In this document: positions 11,067 through 57,614 of the stretch, in pieces
Position numbering within the stretch: position 1 is the stretch's first letter
How the letters are laid out: each line of letters begins with the position of its first letter
Assembly: GCA_022846035.1 (NCBI GenBank)
Contig: AP025580.1
Location: forward strand, 248,001-312,000
DNA length: 64,000 bases
From: Christensenellaceae bacterium
GTDB taxonomy: Bacteria > Bacillota > Clostridia > Christensenellales > Christensenellaceae
Reading direction: 5' to 3'
The notes under the pieces: model-generated
Seen by the model: only the letters and a program-made list of their open reading frames with translations
What the model was told of the DNA's origin: nothing
The model's database searches: none
Program-made: the position numbers and the translations under genes

Positions 11067-11840
11067 ATGCTGGAAGCATTGGATGTGCTTATTGTGGAGG
11101 ACGACCGCAAGACCGCAGAGCATTTGGAAAAATATTTAAAAAAGCAGGAGGATATTCATCAGGTAGACCAAGTGCAGTCCGCGCAGGAAGCGCTGGAGAT
11201 GCTCAGGCTCACGCCGTACGACGTAGTGGTGCTGGATTTGGTGATGCCGTCATGCGACGGGTTTGATTTTTTAGAGCGTATGGCCAATATGCGGGAGGTC
11301 GCGCGTCCGGATGCGATCGTGGTTTCGGCGATCAACAGTGAGGAAGTGATCCGCAAAAGCTTTATGCTGGGAGCAAAATATTATATGATCAAGCCGTTCC
11401 AGGATGAAATCATGTACCACAGAATTTGGGATGTGGTACGTTTGAAACAGCCGGGTGCGCAGGAAGCGGGCGTTGTGCTTGTGCAGGAAGGCGCGGACAG
11501 CGAACGGCGCATTACGGATTTGTTCCTAGCGATCGGCGTTCCGCCGCATTTGAAAGGATACCAATATCTGAAAGAAGCGGTGCGTCTGGCGATGGAAAAC
11601 CGTATGATCGTCTATAGTATTACCAAGCAGCTTTATCCCAGGGTGGCCGAACGGTTTGGCGTGACGCCCACCAAAGTGGAGCTGGCGATCCGTCATGCTA
11701 TCGAGGTAATGTGGGAGCGCGGCAATATAGAAGAGCTGAATAAGGCATTGGGATTTCGCGTTAATTGCAACGGACATAAGCCGACGAACGGCGAGTTTAT
11801 CGCGCTTTTGGCGGACAAGCTGCTGAGCCGTGGCGTTTGA
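11067..11840 (+). CDS. spo0A: Stage 0 sporulation response regulator Spo0A
   Basis: Master transcription factor for entry into sporulation, activated by phosphorylation. The 257-aa protein has a receiver domain (1-120) with acidic EDD at 11-13, phospho-acceptor Asp57 in VVVLDLVMP, a Ser at the usual Thr switch position (VVSAIN) and Lys in MIKPF. The Spo0A_C effector domain (about 150-257) reads IGVPPHLKGYQYL, SITKQLYP, KVELAIRHAIEVMWERGN and KPTNGEFIA, which is diagnostic. ATG 11067 has AGGAGG. It is isolated here, without the recN/spoIVB neighbours seen in many relatives, and is divergent from ktrBA. It implies a spore-forming ancestry, not proof of sporulation. Confidence 0.96.
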   Translation: MLEALDVLIVEDDRKTAEHLEKYLKKQEDIHQVDQVQSAQEALEMLRLTPYDVVVLDLVMPSCDGFDFLERMANMREVARPDAIVVSAINSEEVIRKSFMLGAKYYMIKPFQDEIMYHRIWDVVRLKQPGAQEAGVVLVQEGADSERRITDLFLAIGVPPHLKGYQYLKEAVRLAMENRMIVYSITKQLYPRVAERFGVTPTKVELAIRHAIEVMWERGNIEELNKALGFRVNCNGHKPTNGEFIALLADKLLSRGV

Positions 11841-13775: not shown

Positions 13776-15434
13776 TCAGATTTTCTCTGCCTGCTGTACA
13801 ACCTTTTTCAGCACGTCCAGCGTTTCGTCGGGCAGCTTATCAAACTCGTCTCTGGAAGAAATAAAGCCGATTCTGTCTTTCATACGCGCGACCAGTTGTT
13901 TTTTATATTCAGCATCCTTAAAGTCCGGATCAAAACCATCAACAGGCAGATAACTCATACCGTCGATATTGCCGAAAGAAGTAAAGGCGGCTGTGCCCTC
14001 GATGATCGCTTCGAGGCTTCCCAGTGTGATTTGCGGCGTGACCTTTTTTTCGCCGAAGTGGCCGGTATTGAAGATATAGCAATCGAGGCCCTTATCGGCA
14101 AACAGGGAACGGAAGCCGATATAGTCGTCCGCCAGCCTGTAGGTACGGAACGGGTTTGCATACGGCTCAACGACGAGCGCATCCGGATCGACGCCGGGAG
14201 CAAGGCGCTCAGCAGTCGTACGCTTGGTCGCGAGAGTCGCGCCCATCGTGGAAGCGAGCACTGGATCGTCGATTTTCATAACCGGCGGCAGCGTCGGATC
14301 TTTCATAAGCCAGATGATCGCGTTGGCGGGCTCGTGGAAAACGTCCACCCTGTTCGGGCTCCATAGCTTGGATTTCATCGCGCGGCCGTTGCCGTTGCGA
14401 ATATCTTCCGTAACGAGAACTTTACGGCCCTTGTCGTCCAGCGTTACACCGTTGTTCTGTACTGTAACAAGGTATTTGTTGTCTTCGGAATCCATCGGGT
14501 AATCCTGCGTTTTATCAAAGTACGCAGGCTCGAGGGCCACGGAGGAAGCGTCGTTCCTGTCGATGACGAAAGCGTCGTCGTGCAGGACGGTAATGTCGTA
14601 TTTACCGCCATGGTGTGCGTGCGTAATCGTGGATTTGCCGCTACCGGAGAGGCCGAATACGCCAGCTACGAATTTGCTGCCATCTTTTAAATTGTAGCGT
14701 TTTTGACCGCCGTGGCAGGAGACGAAGCCGTTGCGGTTGGCGACGCCCCAGGCAAGCGTGAGCGTACCCTTTTTGTGTTCGCCGAAATAGCGCATGCCAA
14801 GCAGGCAGGCGCAGTTGTGCTCGGGAGCAAAGAACGCAAGGCCCATCGGGAAATCCGGATGAGACCACTGCGGGTCGGAGAAGATGTAAAGATCTCCCTC
14901 CGGAATTTCTTTGGACTCGCCGTACATTTTGTAGTATTCTTCTGTCAGATACTGGAAGTTGTAAAGCCAGGAATACATGATGTTTTCCTCGCCCTCCGGA
15001 ATGCAGAGGTGCGCTTTGACCATGAATTCGGGCGCGAGGCCGATATACGCCTGCGCGTGGTAAAGAGTCCGGTTGCGCGTCTGGTAGATCGCTTCGCGGA
15101 TGATAGGACCGAATTTTGCTTCGGTCACAGGCTCGCCGTAATAGTCGTTGCTGCCGAGGATGCAGCGTGCCGCCGCCGCGCGTCCGCCGACGTTGCCGTC
15201 GTTAAAGAGCAGGATCTTCGCGTCGGCCGGAAGCCCCGTTTTTTCCGGCTCGTAGACCGGCAGGTCCGTGACAACGGTCCCGGGAGAATCGTACGCAAGC
15301 TTATAAGCCTCCTTCAGGGATTCTACGGGGTATACGTTGTTACCATAAAAGCCGGTTTCGATGATCGTGCGCATAGCCGAGAAATAAGTGCCTTTTTTGA
15401 TCTCGCCCCATGCATAGTTTTGTTTTGTTGACAT
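13776..15434 (-). CDS. Divergent phosphoenolpyruvate carboxykinase paralogue
   Basis: 552-aa member of the ATP-type PEPCK superfamily, probably interconverting oxaloacetate and PEP with a nucleotide. It aligns by eye with the upstream pckA around the active site: YFGEHKK for YAGEIKK, SCHGGQK for MHCSANM, P-loop GVFGLSGSGKST for FFGLSGTGKTT, and metal site LHDDAF for IGDDEH. The N-terminus is different and lacks the usual TGRSP arginine motif that binds substrate, so specificity may have shifted. Start ATG 15432-15434 has AGGAGG eight bases upstream; a TTG two codons earlier is less likely. It is downstream of pckA but separated from it by a terminator. Confidence 0.85.
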   Translation of the reverse strand: MSTKQNYAWGEIKKGTYFSAMRTIIETGFYGNNVYPVESLKEAYKLAYDSPGTVVTDLPVYEPEKTGLPADAKILLFNDGNVGGRAAAARCILGSNDYYGEPVTEAKFGPIIREAIYQTRNRTLYHAQAYIGLAPEFMVKAHLCIPEGEENIMYSWLYNFQYLTEEYYKMYGESKEIPEGDLYIFSDPQWSHPDFPMGLAFFAPEHNCACLLGMRYFGEHKKGTLTLAWGVANRNGFVSCHGGQKRYNLKDGSKFVAGVFGLSGSGKSTITHAHHGGKYDITVLHDDAFVIDRNDASSVALEPAYFDKTQDYPMDSEDNKYLVTVQNNGVTLDDKGRKVLVTEDIRNGNGRAMKSKLWSPNRVDVFHEPANAIIWLMKDPTLPPVMKIDDPVLASTMGATLATKRTTAERLAPGVDPDALVVEPYANPFRTYRLADDYIGFRSLFADKGLDCYIFNTGHFGEKKVTPQITLGSLEAIIEGTAAFTSFGNIDGMSYLPVDGFDPDFKDAEYKKQLVARMKDRIGFISSRDEFDKLPDETLDVLKKVVQQAEKI

Positions 15435-15575
15435 GCCCAAAGCCTCCTGAAAATTTTAATAATGAACGATTGAAAACATATCACGATATGTTGTGGGAAC
15501 AAATTTACAATCTATCCCATATTATATTAATTCCACATTGATTCCTTTAAACCTTTTATTTCAGAATAATAAAAA

Positions 15576-15627: not shown

Positions 15628-17214
15628 TTAACCTCTCGGGCCAGCGTCTGTGATGTTTTTGGGCATGTTCGGATATTTCGCAGCAAAGTTATCTGCGAAC
15701 ATCTTGGCAAGCTTTTTGGCGGATTCGTCATAAGCGGCCTTGTCCTGCCAGGTGTCGCGCGGATTCATGATCTCATCCGGAACGTCAGGACAGCTCTGCG
15801 GAACGTCGACATTGAACACGTCGTCGTGTTTGTACTGGGATTTCTCCAGTTCGCCGTTTAAGGCTGCGGTAATCATTGCGCGGGTATATTTTAGCTTCAT
15901 ACGGCTTCCCACTCCATAAGGGCCGCCGGACCAGCCTGTGTTGACAAGATATACCTTGGTATTGTACTTTTTAAGGCGTTCGCCCAGCATTTCCGCGTAT
16001 ACGGCGGGGTCAAGAGGCATAAACGGCGCGCCGAAGCAGGTGGAGAAAGTCGGCTGCGGCTCCGTGACGCCACGCTCCGTACCGGCCAGCTTGGACGTAA
16101 AACCCGTTACAAAGTGATACATCGCAGCATTTTCATCCAGTCTGCTGATGGGCGGCAAAACGCCGAATGCGTCGGCCGTCAGGAAGATCATAACTTTCGG
16201 TATATCGCCTATGCCCGGGATAGCGGCGTTGGAAATAAAGTCTACCGGATAGCCCACACGGGTATTTTCCGTGAGGCTACCGTCAAAGAAATCGGGCACG
16301 CGCGTCACTGGATCAATGATCACGTTTTCAACAAGGCTGCCGAATTTGATCGCGTTGTAGATTTCCGGCTCGCCCTCGGGATCGAGGTTGATTGTTTTTG
16401 CGTAACAGCCGCCCTCAAAGTTAAAGATGCCGTGCTCAGACCAGCCGTGCTCGTCATCACCGATGAGTTTGCGGTTCGGGTCGGCGGACAGCGTCGTTTT
16501 GCCTGTACCGGAAAGACCGAAGAAAACTGCCGTTTCGCCTGTCTGCGGGTCCATGTTGGCAGAGCAGTGCATGGGCAGGACGTTGCTTTCCTTAGGCATG
16601 AGATAGTTCATGACCGAGAATACGCTCTTTTTAATTTCGCCGGCATATTGCGAACCGGCGATGACCACCAATTTTGCCTCGTAATCAATCATGATTGCGG
16701 CTTCGCTGTGTACGCCGTCCACTTCGGGGATACATTTGAAACCGGGCGCGGCGATGATCGTGAAATCCGCCTCGCCGTAGGACGCGAGCTGATCTGCCGT
16801 AGGACGGATCAGAAGCTGGTGAATGAACAGGTTCTCGCTTGCAAGTTCATTGATGATACGGAATTTCTTCGTGTATGCCGGATCGGCGCCTGCAAAACCG
16901 TCAAAAATAAAGACTTCGCGGTTCTGAAGGTAAGCGCACAGCTTCTCCTTGATCGCGTCGAATTTCGCTTTTTCGATGGGAACATTGATTTTGCCCCATT
17001 TGATGTCATCGTGGATACCGGGGGTATCGACCACAAATTTATCTTCGGGGGAACGCCCCGTGTATTTGCCTGTCGTTACAACAAGCGCGCCTTTGTCACT
17101 CAACTGGCCCTCGCCCCTTCTAAGCGCCGCTTCCACAAGCGCTGCGGGGGAGAGGTTACGCCAAACTGCCGTGGGATTCAGAATTCCTAACTTTTCCAGA
17201 CCATACGTTTCCAT
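15628..17214 (-). CDS. pckA: Phosphoenolpyruvate carboxykinase (ATP)
   Basis: Catalyses oxaloacetate + ATP to PEP + CO2 + ADP, or the reverse CO2-fixing direction in fermenting anaerobes. The 528-aa protein is of standard length and keeps all family landmarks: TGKYTGRSPEDKF (about 48), YAGEIKKSVF (about 200), LPMHCSANM, the P-loop FFGLSGTGKTT (about 238), LIGDDEHGW, and ENTRV near 320. ATG 17214 follows AGGAGG. It has its own promoter with an overlapping dyad and ends at a strong terminator. Confidence 0.97.
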   Translation of the reverse strand: METYGLEKLGILNPTAVWRNLSPAALVEAALRRGEGQLSDKGALVVTTGKYTGRSPEDKFVVDTPGIHDDIKWGKINVPIEKAKFDAIKEKLCAYLQNREVFIFDGFAGADPAYTKKFRIINELASENLFIHQLLIRPTADQLASYGEADFTIIAAPGFKCIPEVDGVHSEAAIMIDYEAKLVVIAGSQYAGEIKKSVFSVMNYLMPKESNVLPMHCSANMDPQTGETAVFFGLSGTGKTTLSADPNRKLIGDDEHGWSEHGIFNFEGGCYAKTINLDPEGEPEIYNAIKFGSLVENVIIDPVTRVPDFFDGSLTENTRVGYPVDFISNAAIPGIGDIPKVMIFLTADAFGVLPPISRLDENAAMYHFVTGFTSKLAGTERGVTEPQPTFSTCFGAPFMPLDPAVYAEMLGERLKKYNTKVYLVNTGWSGGPYGVGSRMKLKYTRAMITAALNGELEKSQYKHDDVFNVDVPQSCPDVPDEIMNPRDTWQDKAAYDESAKKLAKMFADNFAAKYPNMPKNITDAGPRG

Positions 17215-46280: not shown

Positions 46281-46811
46281 TTATTGCGGCTCGATCAGGC
46301 CGTAATTTCCATCTGTCCGCTTGTAGAGTACATTAACCTCGTTGTTGTGCATATTGCGGAAAACAAAGAAGTTGTGCCCCAAAAGGTCCATCTGCATGAT
46401 GGCGTCTTCCACATCCATCGGACGCAGCGCGAATTTCTTTTTGCGCACAATTTGCGGTTCCTCTTCCTCGAATGATTCATCGTAATAATCGTATACGGTT
46501 TCCTCGTCGAAAGCGGATTCATGCAGCCTGCGTTCCAGCTTGGTGCGGTGTTTGCGTATCTGGCGCTCCAGCTTTTTGAGCACGGCGTCGATAGAAGAGT
46601 ACATATCGCCGGTGGCCTCTTCGCCGCGCAGTACAACGCCGTCGCACACGATCGTGACTTCCGCGATATGGCGGGATTTTTCGATCGACAGCGTAACCTG
46701 CATTTCGGTGTCCGGTTTGAAGTAGCGTTCCAGCTTACCTGCTTTTTTATTTACGATGTCGCGTAAATAATTGGAAATGCTGATGTTTTTGCCGGAAATA
46801 TTGATTTTCAT
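46281..46811 (-). CDS. hpf: Ribosome hibernation promoting factor, long form (HPF/RaiA)
   Basis: Binds the decoding centre in stationary phase and dimerises 70S ribosomes into 100S particles. The 176-aa protein has the N-terminal S30AE domain (1-100; KINISGKNISISNYLRD, then EEATGDMYSSIDAVLKKLERQ) and the C-terminal dimerisation domain (about 115-176; IVRKKKFALRPMDVEDAIMQMDLLGHNFFVFRN in outline), so it is the long form typical of Firmicutes. ATG 46811 has AAGGGG upstream. The leader upstream carries a large structured RNA candidate. Confidence 0.95.
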   Translation of the reverse strand: MKINISGKNISISNYLRDIVNKKAGKLERYFKPDTEMQVTLSIEKSRHIAEVTIVCDGVVLRGEEATGDMYSSIDAVLKKLERQIRKHRTKLERRLHESAFDEETVYDYYDESFEEEEPQIVRKKKFALRPMDVEDAIMQMDLLGHNFFVFRNMHNNEVNVLYKRTDGNYGLIEPQ

Positions 46812-46887
46812 GTAGTTCGCCCCTTCCGTTTGATATTATCTAAGATATTCTGCATTGCAGTCCCCGTTTCCTTTAAAAACGGAAAAT

Positions 46888-47112
46888 CCACGGCAAAAGA
46901 TTCGCCCGACCTGGTCTTTTCCCCCACATTCGCCGTCCGGAAGCCCCGCAGCCTTTTGGGCCACTCTTACTCCTCTCGCTTTTTTTTAAGCGGACGGTCT
47001 TACGTCTAGCCGCACTATGCTCGCACGAAAAACGTGCTTACGTGGACCGCTTCGCCTGCGACTGGCATCGGCTTGCAACCACGGACGCGAATCTTTTGCC
47101 GTAGATTTTGAT
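46888..47112 (-). ncRNA. Candidate raiA-motif structured RNA upstream of hpf (raiA)
   Basis: On the minus strand an 18-bp long-range stem closes a region of about 215 nt: the 5' arm (47087-47104) pairs with the 3' arm (46888-46905), with 15 perfect consecutive pairs (CGGCAAAAGATTCGC with its complement). Inside are further hairpins, for example GCACG-TTTTT-CGTGC at about 47021-47035, in GC-rich, non-coding sequence. A good promoter begins transcription only a few bases before the stem. The position directly upstream of the raiA/hpf gene, the size and the closing stem fit the published raiA RNA motif of Firmicutes and Actinobacteria. I could not compare it with the covariance model. Confidence 0.75.
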
Positions 47113-47118
47113 ACGCTT

Positions 47119-47147
47119 ATTATAAAGAAAAGCGGCGCAATGTACAA
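47119..47147 (-). promoter_or_regulatory. Promoter of candidate raiA RNA
   Basis: Reading leftward: TTGTAC (47142-47147), 17-base spacer, TATAAT (47119-47124). The predicted start, about 47110-47112, sits right before the closing stem. Confidence 0.75.
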
Positions 47148-47272: not shown

Positions 47273-49996
47273 ATGGGATTGTTTTCAAATTCGGCGCTGC
47301 GTCCCGTCAAAAAGCTCGCAGACAAGGTAGAGGCGCTTTCGCCGGTTTATGAGGGGATGAGCGACGAAGAACTCGTTTCCATGACGGAGGAATTTAAAAA
47401 ACGTCATCAAAACGGCGAATCTCTGGACGCTTTGCTGCCGGATGTTTTCGCGCAGGTGCGCGAGGCAAGCTGGCGTGTTCTCGGCATGAAGCATTTCTAC
47501 GCCCAGGTACTGGGCGGCATCGTTCTTCACCAGGGAAATATCGCAGAGATGAAGACTGGTGAGGGCAAAACGCTGGTGGCGACGCTGCCGGCGGTTTTAA
47601 ACGCGATTTCCGGCAAAGGCGTGCATATTGTCACGGTCAATGAATACCTGGCAAAGCGTGACAGCGAGTGGATGGGCAAGGTGTTCCGTTACCTTGGTTA
47701 CACGGTTGGCCTTGTATCGCGCGAGATGGATAAGGCGCAGAAGCAAAGAGCATACGCCTGCGATATTACCTATTCCACCAACAATGAGCTTGGATTCGAT
47801 TATTTAAGAGACAATATGGTCATCCGCAAGAGCGATCTTGTGCAAAGGGAGCTTAATTTTGCTATCGTCGACGAAGTGGACAGTATCCTGGTCGACGAGG
47901 CGCGTACGCCGCTTATCATCTCCGGACAGGGAGACAAGGGAACGGACCTTTACCAACAGGCGGACAGGTTTGTGCGCAAATTAAAGGAAGAGGACGACTA
48001 CGAAGTCGACGAAAAAATGAAAGCCATCAACTTAACGGAAGAGGGCGTCAAAAAAGCGGAGCAGTTCTTTAAGCTGGATAACTTAACGGATATAGAGAAC
48101 ACAGAGATCGTGCACCATATCAACCAGGCCTTAAAAGCGCACCGTTTATTTATCCGCGACAGGGAATACGTGGTGACGGAGGAAAAAGAAGTCGTCATCG
48201 TTGACGAGTTCACCGGCCGGCTGATGATCGGCCGCCGTTATTCCGACGGACTGCACCAGGCGATCGAGGCAAAAGAGGGCGTTAAGGTGGAACGCGAGTC
48301 AAAGACGCTTGCAACCATCACTTTCCAAAATTTCTTCCGTATGTATAACAAGCTTTCGGGGATGACGGGTACGGCAAAAACAGAGGAAGACGAATTCCAG
48401 AGTATTTATAATCTGCAGGTCGTGGAAATTCCCACGCACCGGCCGATGATCCGTAAGGATTTAAACGACGCGATTTATGGTACCAAAAAGGGAAAATTCA
48501 ACGCGGTGGCGGACGAGATCGCTCTGCTGCACGAGACGGGGCGGCCGATCCTTGTGGGAACGGTTTCCGTAGCGGACAACGAATACCTTTCGTCGCTGCT
48601 GGTGCGGCGGGGTATCCAGCACGAGTTATTAAACGCAAAGAACCATTTGCGCGAGGCGCAGATCGTCGCGCAGGCAGGCAAGAAAAACGCGGTCACTATC
48701 GCTACCAACATGGCGGGCCGTGGTACGGATATTATCCTTGGCGGTAACGCCGACTATCTTGCGCGCAACGAGATGCGCGCGGACGGTATGGATGACGAAA
48801 TGATTGAAAACGCGGTCAGCCATGCGGTGACGGAGGATCCGGAAATACTTGCGGCGCGTAAGAAATATGCGGAGCTGCTTGCAAAACATAAAAAGATCAC
48901 GGATGCAGAACATGAGGAAGTCGTCGCTTTGGGCGGGCTTGCGATCATCGGTACCGAGCGGCATGAATCCCGCCGTATCGATAACCAGCTCAGAGGCCGT
49001 AGCGGACGTCAGGGCGACCCGGGATCGTCCAAATTCTTTATCGCGCTGGAAGACGATTTGATGCGTCTTTTCGGCGGTGACCGTATCAAGGCGATGATGG
49101 AGCGCCTTTCCGGCGATGACGACGATATGCCGCTGGAGTTTGGCATGCTCACAAAACAGATCGAGACGGCGCAAAAGCGTATTGAAAGCAACAATTTCAA
49201 TCTAAGAAAACACGTCCTCGACTACGACGACGTTATGAACAAGCAACGCGAAGTGATTTACGGACAGCGCAAGCAGGTGCTGATGGGCGACGATATTACG
49301 GGCAATATCACCGGCATGGTGGAAACGCTTGTGGATGGCGCGCTCGGCGTTTACTGCCCCAAGGGGAAATATCCGGAGGAATGGGACTGGGACGACCTGT
49401 ATGCATACTTTGAACGTGTATTCGCGCTGAAAGTAAGGCGTTACGACGACGATGAGAAAGAAGCGGCGGAGCTTCCCGCGTTGCGCGATGAACTTTTGAG
49501 CGCGGTTAGGGCAGCATATACCAAGAAAGAAGAAGAAATGGACGGCGCAGGCTTCAATATGCGCGACGTCGAGCGTATGGTATTGCTGCGGGTGGTGGAT
49601 TCCAAGTGGATGGACCATATCGACGCGATGGACCAGTTCCGTCGGGGAATCGGCCTGCGCGCTTTAGGGCAGCGCGATCCGATCAATGAATACCGCATTG
49701 AAGGCTTTGACATGTTCGACGCGATGGTGGATGCGATCCGCGAGGAGACCGTCTACATGCTGTACCATATCAAGGTAGAGAGCAAGGTCGAGCAAAAAGA
49801 AGTTGCGGGTGCGCGGGCGAACGTGGACGAGGACGGCAACCCGCTTTCGCAGAGCCGGCAAAGGAATATCCAGGCGGGCACGAACGCGCCGCAGGCGCAA
49901 ATGCCCGTACGCGTGGAAAAGAAAGTTGGCAGGAACGAACCGTGCCCTTGCGGGAGCGGCAAGAAATATAAAAACTGCTGCGGGAAAGACGCCTGA
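47273..49996 (+). CDS. secA: Preprotein translocase ATPase SecA
   Basis: Motor that pushes unfolded preproteins through SecYEG. At 907 aa it is of full length. It has the N-terminal motor domain with [15 protein letters not shown] (about 84), [14 protein letters not shown] (about 205), the preprotein cross-linking domain, the second motor domain with [14 protein letters not shown] and [18 protein letters not shown], the helical scaffold, a linker, and the zinc-binding SEC-C tail [21 protein letters not shown] start. In many Firmicutes prfB follows directly; here four kb of other genes intervene and prfB is inverted. Confidence 0.98.
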
Positions 49997-55760: not shown

Positions 55761-57614
55761 ATGAAACGTTCTGCAAAATTTTTTATTCCGGTTCTTTTAA
55801 TATTGCTGCTTGTCATAAGTCTAGCCGCAGTCAAGCTGGTTGCCGACATTGGTAATTATGGCCGCCTGATTAATTACGTGGGTATTGTACGCGGCGCATC
55901 GCAACGCGTGATTAAGCTGGAAACAAATATGATGCCAAGCAATGACCTGATTGATTACGTGGATGGAATCCTTGAGGAATTGGAAACAGGGAAGGGTGAG
56001 TATGGCCTTGTGATCCCCCAAGACACCGCTTATCGAAATGACCTGTCTATGTTGTCCAAGCAGTGGAATATTGTAAAAGACGGGATACAGCAAGTCAGGA
56101 ACGGGGCCGATCCGACACAATTGCTATTGGAAAGCGAAGAATTATTTGATATTGCTAACAATACGGTGTTCGCGATTGAGGATTATTCGAGCCGGCAGAC
56201 GGCGGATTTGTCAAGATTGATTTTTATCATGACGGTTGCATGTATCGTTGCCTGTATTATTGTAGTGACGTTCTACATCAAAAGGATGGTAGAACTCAGG
56301 CATAAAAATGAGACTCTGGAAGACATCGCGTTCAGAGACGAGGTCACGGGAGCATATACTTTAGAAAAATTCAAGGCCGAGGCGGCAGCGATCCTGGAAC
56401 AAAATCCCTCAGAAAAATTTGCGGTTGTCTATATGGATTTTGAAAATTTTAAATACATTAACGATGTTTTTGGTTATGACTGCGGGGACGGCGTATTAAA
56501 AACCTATGCGGAACTGATGATGGAAGATATGGGGGAGTATGAAGTTTTCGGGCACAATACTGCGGATCAGTTTGTAGCGTTATGCCGCTATACGGACAAA
56601 AATGATCTCATCGACCGGCACAGGCGGATCGACAGGGAGTTGGTCGAACGGATTGAGGCATTGAAAAATAAATACATGATTACTCTGGTATATGGAATCT
56701 GCTGCGTAGAGGATGCCGGAAGAACGTGCGAAATGGCTACGCTCCTTAATTACGCGAATTTTGCGCAAAAAACGGTCAAAAATCATGCGGGCAAGCATCG
56801 CTATGCATTTTACAACGAGAGTATACGGAAAAAAATGATCGAAGAAGTCACGATTATGAGCAGGATGCACGAGGCGCTCAGGCAGAACGAATTTATCGTA
56901 TACCTGCAGCCGAAAGTCAGCCTGAAGAGCAGGCGCGTAGAGTGCGCGGAAGCTTTGGTGCGTTGGAATATGCCGGGAAAAGGTATCGTTCCGCCGGATC
57001 ACTTTATCCCCATTTTTGAGCACTGCCGTTTCATCAGCGCGCTGGATCAATATGTATTTGAGAAAATCTGCGTTTGGCTTTGCAGCCGCCTCGACCAGAA
57101 GCTTGAAGTGCTGCCGATTTCGGTGAATGTATCGCGTATCCAGTTTTATGATCCGGATTTCGTATCGGTCTATACGGAAATGAAAGAACGCTACCGGATT
57201 CCGGATCAACTGATAGAAATCGAATTCACGGAAACAGTGGCGTTCGAAAACCAGAAATATATGATCCAGACGGTGAAAGATTTACGTGCAAAAGGCTTTC
57301 GCTGTTCGCTGGACGACTTTGGGAAAGGATATTCTTCGTTGGGCGTTTTAAAGGACATGCCTATCGATGTATTGAAACTGGACGCGGCCTTTTTTACGGA
57401 AAATATGGATGACGAAAAAGACTACACGGTGCTCAAGGGCATCATATCCATTGCAAGGAACCTGCATATACAAACGGTTGCGGAAGGTGTAGAATGGGAA
57501 AAGCAGGTCGAGTTTTTGAGGGCGGAGGGCTGCGATTTTGTGCAGGGCTATTATTACTACAAGCCCATGCCGATTGCCGATTTTGAAACACTGATAAAAA
57601 CACAGGAAAAATAG
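55761..57614 (+). CDS. Membrane-bound cyclic-di-GMP phosphodiesterase (EAL) with degenerate GGDEF
   Basis: 617-aa signalling enzyme expected to hydrolyse c-di-GMP. It has two membrane helices (about 7-27 and 152-174) enclosing an extracytoplasmic sensor of about 125 residues, then a GGDEF-type domain (about 190-345) whose signature is degraded to GHNTADQF, so it should not make c-di-GMP. The EAL domain (about 365-615) keeps its catalytic set: ECAEALVRW, SVNVSRIQF, IEFTET, LDDFGKGYSSL, LKLDA, and VAEGVE...FVQGYYY. ATG 55761 has AGGGTGG. The GGDEF-like part may still bind GTP and regulate EAL. Confidence 0.92.
   Translation: MKRSAKFFIPVLLILLLVISLAAVKLVADIGNYGRLINYVGIVRGASQRVIKLETNMMPSNDLIDYVDGILEELETGKGEYGLVIPQDTAYRNDLSMLSKQWNIVKDGIQQVRNGADPTQLLLESEELFDIANNTVFAIEDYSSRQTADLSRLIFIMTVACIVACIIVVTFYIKRMVELRHKNETLEDIAFRDEVTGAYTLEKFKAEAAAILEQNPSEKFAVVYMDFENFKYINDVFGYDCGDGVLKTYAELMMEDMGEYEVFGHNTADQFVALCRYTDKNDLIDRHRRIDRELVERIEALKNKYMITLVYGICCVEDAGRTCEMATLLNYANFAQKTVKNHAGKHRYAFYNESIRKKMIEEVTIMSRMHEALRQNEFIVYLQPKVSLKSRRVECAEALVRWNMPGKGIVPPDHFIPIFEHCRFISALDQYVFEKICVWLCSRLDQKLEVLPISVNVSRIQFYDPDFVSVYTEMKERYRIPDQLIEIEFTETVAFENQKYMIQTVKDLRAKGFRCSLDDFGKGYSSLGVLKDMPIDVLKLDAAFFTENMDDEKDYTVLKGIISIARNLHIQTVAEGVEWEKQVEFLRAEGCDFVQGYYYYKPMPIADFETLIKTQEK

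Follow-up and report, generated by a model that had tools for sequence, protein, structure and literature searches.

A raiA/ModT RNA in Christensenella, a genus without the tested core spore genes, and zf_Tbcl as a candidate partner gene

In a 64,000-nt stretch of a Christensenellaceae genome (here called the window), a first-pass annotation made from the sequence had proposed that the minus strand between secA and hpf carries a raiA-motif RNA with its own promoter, and the presence of a Spo0A gene in the same window had implied a tie to sporulation. The locus raises the question of what such an RNA does in this organism, whether as a leader of hpf, as a sporulation factor, or as an independent transcript with another role. 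raiA RNAs occur in more than 2,500 species, with solved structures and knockout phenotypes; to our knowledge, no biochemical function has been assigned to them.

RESULTS

Identity and genomic setting

The Rfam covariance model for raiA RNA (RF03072) matched the minus strand from 47095 to 46897 over model positions 1 to 209, with a score of 151.6 bits (E = 9e-38) compared to a curated cutoff of 101.3 bits. The first-pass annotation had suggested scoring the reverse strand against this model, and the match, above the cutoff across the whole model, bore out its proposal of a raiA-motif RNA. The RNA core (46897 to 47095, minus strand) had a G+C content of 57% and contained no reading frame of note, as had been stated; no overlapping open reading frame (ORF) on either strand was longer than 59 amino acids. 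Its flanks were also as described. secA lies on the plus strand (47273 to 49996), divergent from hpf, and hpf lies downstream of the RNA on the minus strand (46281 to 46811) and encodes a ribosome hibernation factor (hpf/raiA) with both S30AE domains (PF02482 and PF16321). The window genome consists of one contig of 2.77 Mb, and no second raiA RNA was found in a search of it. The named relatives reached through the hpf protein were Christensenella hongkongensis and Christensenella sp. Marseille-P2438. The window RNA is the single chromosomal raiA (ModT) copy of a Christensenella species. It is unexceptional within a known family, so the finding by itself is not novel.

raiA RNA was found in all 12 good genomes of the family and in 75 of 247 genomes of the order, with the reservation that searches over more than 40 genomes used stricter filters, under which weak RNA matches were lost. 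Copies from Christensenella scored 147 to 155 bits, compared to 186 to 201 bits in those genera of the family that carry spore genes. Gaps in metagenome-assembled genomes can imitate absence; several of the key genomes, including the window genome, are single-contig and near complete. A group II intron (RF02001 match) was located near the raiA-hpf locus of genome G006 (L082, 5424 to 5582, minus strand). Elsewhere in the window, two adjoining PEPCK_ATP genes were found on the minus strand (13776 to 15440 and 15628 to 17214), the first of which is very divergent (55 versus 729 bits).

Conserved pairing

The predicted fold had a minimum free energy of −98.7 kcal/mol (z = −4.84), and none of 200 shuffled sequences was equally stable. 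An 18-bp long-range closing stem with 15 pairs had been described in the first-pass annotation; the stem exists, with its length understated. P1 comprises 23 consecutive pairs, including one U·G, between its 5′ strand (47087 to 47109, minus strand) and its 3′ strand (46883 to 46905, minus strand, pairing with 47109 to 47087), of which 9 belong to the Rfam model and 14 lie beyond it. The inner nine pairs covaried strongly among 40 relatives. The outermost pairs (helix 1 of the 40-relative alignment) were not generally conserved (41% paired), so that part of the great length that P1 reaches in the window is a local feature.

The remaining elements were compared among 78 relatives, to which the numbering of the Clostridium acetobutylicum structure (PMC11751092) could be fitted directly; all lie on the minus strand of the window. 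The P3 hairpin (47046 to 47072) kept its pairs in 77 or 78 of the 78, and its loop (AGTCGCA, 47063 to 47057) provides the 5′ half of pseudoknot pk1, forming seven pairs with TGCGGCT in the pk-loop (47008 to 47014), which were likewise kept in 77 to 78 relatives. P4 (47042 to 47045 with 46924 to 46927) was paired in all 78, and P6 (46997 to 46992 with 46938 to 46933), which showed covariation, encloses P7 and P8 (46973 to 46939) within 46933 to 46997. P1b and P1c were also paired in 77 to 78 relatives. Compensatory changes were found at 13-194, at 25-49 in P3, and at 35-90, 36-89, and 39-86 in pk1.

In the alignment of 40 relatives, the covariation score was 0.356, compared to 0.135 for shuffled alignments (0 of 500 shuffles reached the observed value), and 34 pairs showed change on both sides. 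Paired cells made up 86% of the total and fell to 32 to 44% once partners were slid by one to three columns. The compensatory change in relatives that the first-pass annotation had named as a check was thus present, including in the known pseudoknot pk1, and the combination of P1, P3, P4, and P6 with compensatory change places the window RNA within the family. Judged from these substitution patterns, the raiA architecture (P1, P3, P4, P6 to P8, and pk1) is under selection on pairing.

Departures in pk2 and P8

Two elements differed in Christensenella. In the solved structure, pk2 consists of two pairs, U-A and G-C, of which Christensenella RNAs retain one: in the 5′ half (47016 to 47017, minus strand), U83 is kept and G84 is replaced by A, and in the 3′ half (46919 to 46920, minus strand), A182 is kept and C181 is replaced by A. 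Among the 78 relatives, pair 84-181 was G-C in 65, A-U in 2, A·A in 7, and G·A in 4. The A-U pairs represent compensatory change and therefore support pk2, and since 11 of the 78 over-threshold members were also without the second pair, that pair is not strictly required. The A·A set comprised all six Christensenella genomes and G036, a member of another family. Comparison of the two halves of the P8 E-loop showed the AGUA strand to be largely kept and the 3′ strand to be changed from GAA to GGG in all six Christensenella genomes. The window RNA does not have the complete E-loop, an optional, nondefining feature present in about 20% of members (PMC11751092, PMC11706538), and the authors of the ModT study had not tried orthologs lacking it in complementation (PMC11706538). 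Given the lower scores and the departures in pk2 and the E-loop, the function of the RNA could have shifted in Christensenella.

The window RNA shares with the C. acetobutylicum raiA RNA (RF03072; structures 9CXF and 9ELY) its helices, the P3 loop in pk1, the U83-A182 pair, and an own promoter. It differs in having A·A in place of G84-C181, a P8 without the E-loop GAA strand, a P1 lengthened to 23 bp, a nonsporulating host, and a location flanked by the divergent genes secA and hpf, hpf being followed by a convergent comFC.

Promoter and predicted transcript

A sigma-A-type promoter was located on the minus strand (47119 to 47147), exactly as the first-pass annotation had given it, with a −35 element TTGTAC (47147 to 47142), a 17-nt spacer, and a −10 element TATAAT (47124 to 47119). 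In 73 of 78 relatives, the 75 nt preceding the RNA contained a sigma-70-type match at 9 or more of 12 positions, compared to 35 of 1,088 control windows further upstream, and an exact TATAAT lay at most 45 nt from the RNA in 65 of the 78. The window RNA therefore has its own promoter, as is characteristic of raiA/ModT, and the conservation of this promoter agrees with the single mapped SigA promoter of Clostridioides difficile ModT (PMC11706538). The predicted transcription start is near 47112, about 3 nt from the beginning of P1, and the promoter position and the extended P1 together predict a transcript of about 230 nt (46883 to 47112, minus strand), its 3′ end being placed at the end of P1. 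Since P1 reaches nearly to the predicted 5′ end, the transcript would be closed on itself at about 230 nt. C. difficile ModT has in common with the window RNA a stand-alone SigA-type promoter and the structured core; it differs in having a gene for a PTS antiterminator downstream instead of hpf and two mapped 3′ ends, at 215 and 260 nt (PMC11706538), whereas the ends of the Christensenella RNA are predicted ones.

T-rich 8-mers were enriched just past P1 (35% versus 6% of windows). P1 followed by a U-tract was considered as a general intrinsic terminator and was rejected as weak; most loci had no T-rich 8-mer, and no single geometry held.

Sporulation genes

The tie to sporulation implied by Spo0A (11067 to 11840, plus strand) failed. 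In an 18-genome sample of the family, SpoIVA, SpoVAC/E, and SpoIVB were absent from all six Christensenella genomes, including that of the window, as well as from the RNA-bearing genomes G006, G007, G009, and G016, and were present in G010 to G014. All six Christensenella genomes retain raiA RNA. A sporulation link by way of the window's Spo0A was rejected, because with the tested core spore genes absent and the RNA kept, this gene is no evidence for a sporulation role; the host does not carry these core endospore genes, which would accompany an endospore-linked RNA. Published descriptions give the genus as non-spore-forming (PMC8289216, PMC7937921). Two Spo0A-type regulators per Christensenella genome were the only spore-type genes found, the second Spo0A_C gene of the window genome lying elsewhere in it. 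Spo0A, retained in a genus without the tested spore genes, has probably been repurposed.

Across the order, the RNA was kept without SpoIVA in 25 genomes from six families. It was present in 25 of 35 genomes without SpoIVA and in 50 of 212 others (Fisher test, P = 7e-8, phylogeny ignored). This association is not used alone, because many SpoIVA-bearing families lack the RNA and the test takes no account of phylogeny. We infer that the function of raiA RNA is wider than sporulation, here for a defined genus whose close relatives include carriers of spore genes, which agrees with a published remark that many non-spore-formers carry ModT.

DISCUSSION

A trans-acting role

The locus is best explained, and we think quite probably, by an RNA that is transcribed separately, acts in trans, and has a role in leaving exponential growth that does not depend on sporulation; its connection to hpf is probably through read-through. 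By analogy with Clostridium, the window RNA would be abundant, stable, and made during growth. Acting in trans and probably together with a protein, it would time the exit from exponential growth, independently of sporulation. Part of the transcription probably continues into hpf, which would link synthesis of the RNA to the ribosome hibernation factor without hpf being an obligatory target. As the flank examined contained hpf at only 18 of the order's 78 loci, this read-through link may be local chance. ModT is very abundant, was complemented in trans, and appeared to be protein associated in probing and gradient experiments, and trans action, abundance, and probable protein binding in Christensenella are carried over from these results in Clostridium (PMC11706538).

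Among the other genes of the window, one encodes a GGDEF-EAL protein (55761 to 57614, plus strand). This protein is of interest because c-di-GMP rises in C. difficile when ModT is lost.

The zf_Tbcl neighborhood and shortened RNAs

A refinement of the trans-acting reading, not exclusive of it, would make the RNA and a short gene for the treble-clef zinc-finger domain zf_Tbcl (PF13451) one functional unit, either as a ribonucleoprotein or as an RNA-regulated small gene, with hpf and comFC merely ancestral neighbors; the Christensenella gene would have moved and shortened and would still work with the RNA in trans. We regard this as possible but doubtful. In its favor, the domain starts 34 to 56 nt after the RNA in 50 of the 75 RNA-bearing genomes of the order (for example, at loci L016, L017, L042, and L070), making zf_Tbcl a commoner neighbor of the RNA than hpf in the order. 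The two co-occur in 67 genomes of the order, with the RNA only in 8, zf_Tbcl only in 34, and neither in 138 (P of about 1e-25, not corrected for phylogeny). zf_Tbcl was directly downstream in 16 of 24 RNA-bearing genomes of a separate phylum sample of 249 genomes; within the same sample, however, the domain was far more widespread than the RNA (163 versus 24 genomes). The arrangement at L042, L070, L076, and similar loci points to comFC-RNA-zf_Tbcl-hpf as an older gene order.

Five of the six Christensenella genomes (the exception being G003) retain zf_Tbcl in a shorter form, unlinked from the RNA and with its own leader. Such retention would fit a unit acting in trans, as would the probable protein binding of ModT. 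Against it, the gene in the window genome is far from the RNA (contig position 2605661 versus 294897) and has a different leader, and in G003 and several other family members the RNA is present and zf_Tbcl is absent. The leader of the Christensenella gene is itself conserved and carries a TTTGGGGGA...TTTTCCCAAA hairpin immediately upstream of the ribosome-binding site (L168, about 1000 to 1260; also L169 and L170). In family f42 (L145, L146, and L158), the gene after the raiA RNA reads VQGKVKWFN... and is cold-shock-protein-like, another RNA-binding neighbor.

The AlphaFold model of zf_Tbcl (pLDDT, 80.7; pTM, 0.39) gave no Foldseek match at an E value of ≤0.001, a second look reached Z values of up to 3.5 only, and a sequence search of the PDB returned generic zinc fingers as the best matches (E = 0.01), which was uninformative. 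The fold thus offers no informative match from which a function could be drawn, and the partnership is argued from neighborhood alone; adjacency is no proof of binding. Published synteny work lists comFC and raiA as common neighbors of the RNA, and synteny was considered of little use for deducing function. The literature covered yielded no mention of zf_Tbcl; the primary papers (Soares 2024, Weinberg 2017) lay outside its scope and could contain one.

Further adjacency came from shortened raiA-like RNAs. Seven subthreshold RF03072 matches in the phylum sample were RNAs of about 113 to 120 nt, and a model (R1) built from these seven found 13 shortened RNAs among 398 genomes sampled from the phylum, all in two families, with scores of 97 to 148 bits; 7 of the 13 were the training sequences. 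The shortened RNAs (L172 to L184, matches at about 1501 to 1630) were 112 to 119 nt long and scored 42 to 59 bits with RF03072, below its threshold. They share with raiA RNA P1, the UGAAA turn, P3, a pk1 strand complementary to the P3 loop, and a promoter, and differ in missing P6 to P8 and the pk2 loop. All 13 lie about 30 to 35 nt upstream of a zf_Tbcl frame and have a TATAAT-type −10 element, which speaks for the unit. On sequence grounds, the shortened RNAs constitute a candidate new subfamily and, if real, mark a minimal core.

Control of hpf in cis

That the RNA is a leader or riboswitch that senses something and controls hpf on the same transcript appears very improbable. Such an arrangement would fit the hpf start 86 nt downstream of the RNA core on the same strand (Shine-Dalgarno sequence GGAAGGGG, 46820 to 46827, minus strand), the failure to find a promoter-like site between the two on the minus strand, and the position of hpf directly after the RNA in each of the six Christensenella genomes; Rfam also types RF03072 as “Cis-reg; riboswitch.” However, no clear expression platform was found in the RNA-hpf interval, where there was no clear terminator and terminator-like sites were at chance level (2 found versus 2.2 expected). 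Nor is the spacing between RNA and hpf conserved; members of the genus differ in it, from about 86 up to 291 nt. Across the order, the flank examined contained no hpf at 60 of 78 loci. In two Clostridia, where the RNA was complemented in trans, an exclusively cis-acting role is excluded (PMC11706538). The Rfam label is at odds with this published complementation.

Decay after loss of sporulation

It is very unlikely that the RNA is a decaying relic that lost its main job with sporulation and is drifting in Christensenella: scores are lower in genera g1, g2, and g5, which have no spore genes (146 to 163 bits, versus 186 to 201 in g3/g4), and the pk2 pair and the E-loop strand are lost, but the RNA persists in all six species together with a strong promoter and P1, P3, P4, P6, and pk1, compensatory changes being present within the genus, G007 and G009 reach 195 to 200 bits without the tested spore genes, and the pk2 changes are common to all six, as expected of a fixed variant.

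Implications

The window RNA has its value as a sporulation-free, E-loop-altered natural variant and in the two leads that came from following it. Christensenella offers a nonsporulating host in which the function of raiA RNA can be studied free of sporulation, and its RNA, without the full E-loop, is of the ortholog type that the ModT authors had not tried (PMC11706538). The zf_Tbcl neighborhood across the phylum and the shortened RNAs provide a candidate partner and a candidate minimal core, both of which are testable. Tentatively, and with the odds in our estimation against it, raiA/ModT may pair with zf_Tbcl in a ribonucleoprotein or regulatory relationship, with P1, P3, and pk1 as the minimal core, and the Christensenella form may be a derived, sporulation-free one whose partner gene has moved.
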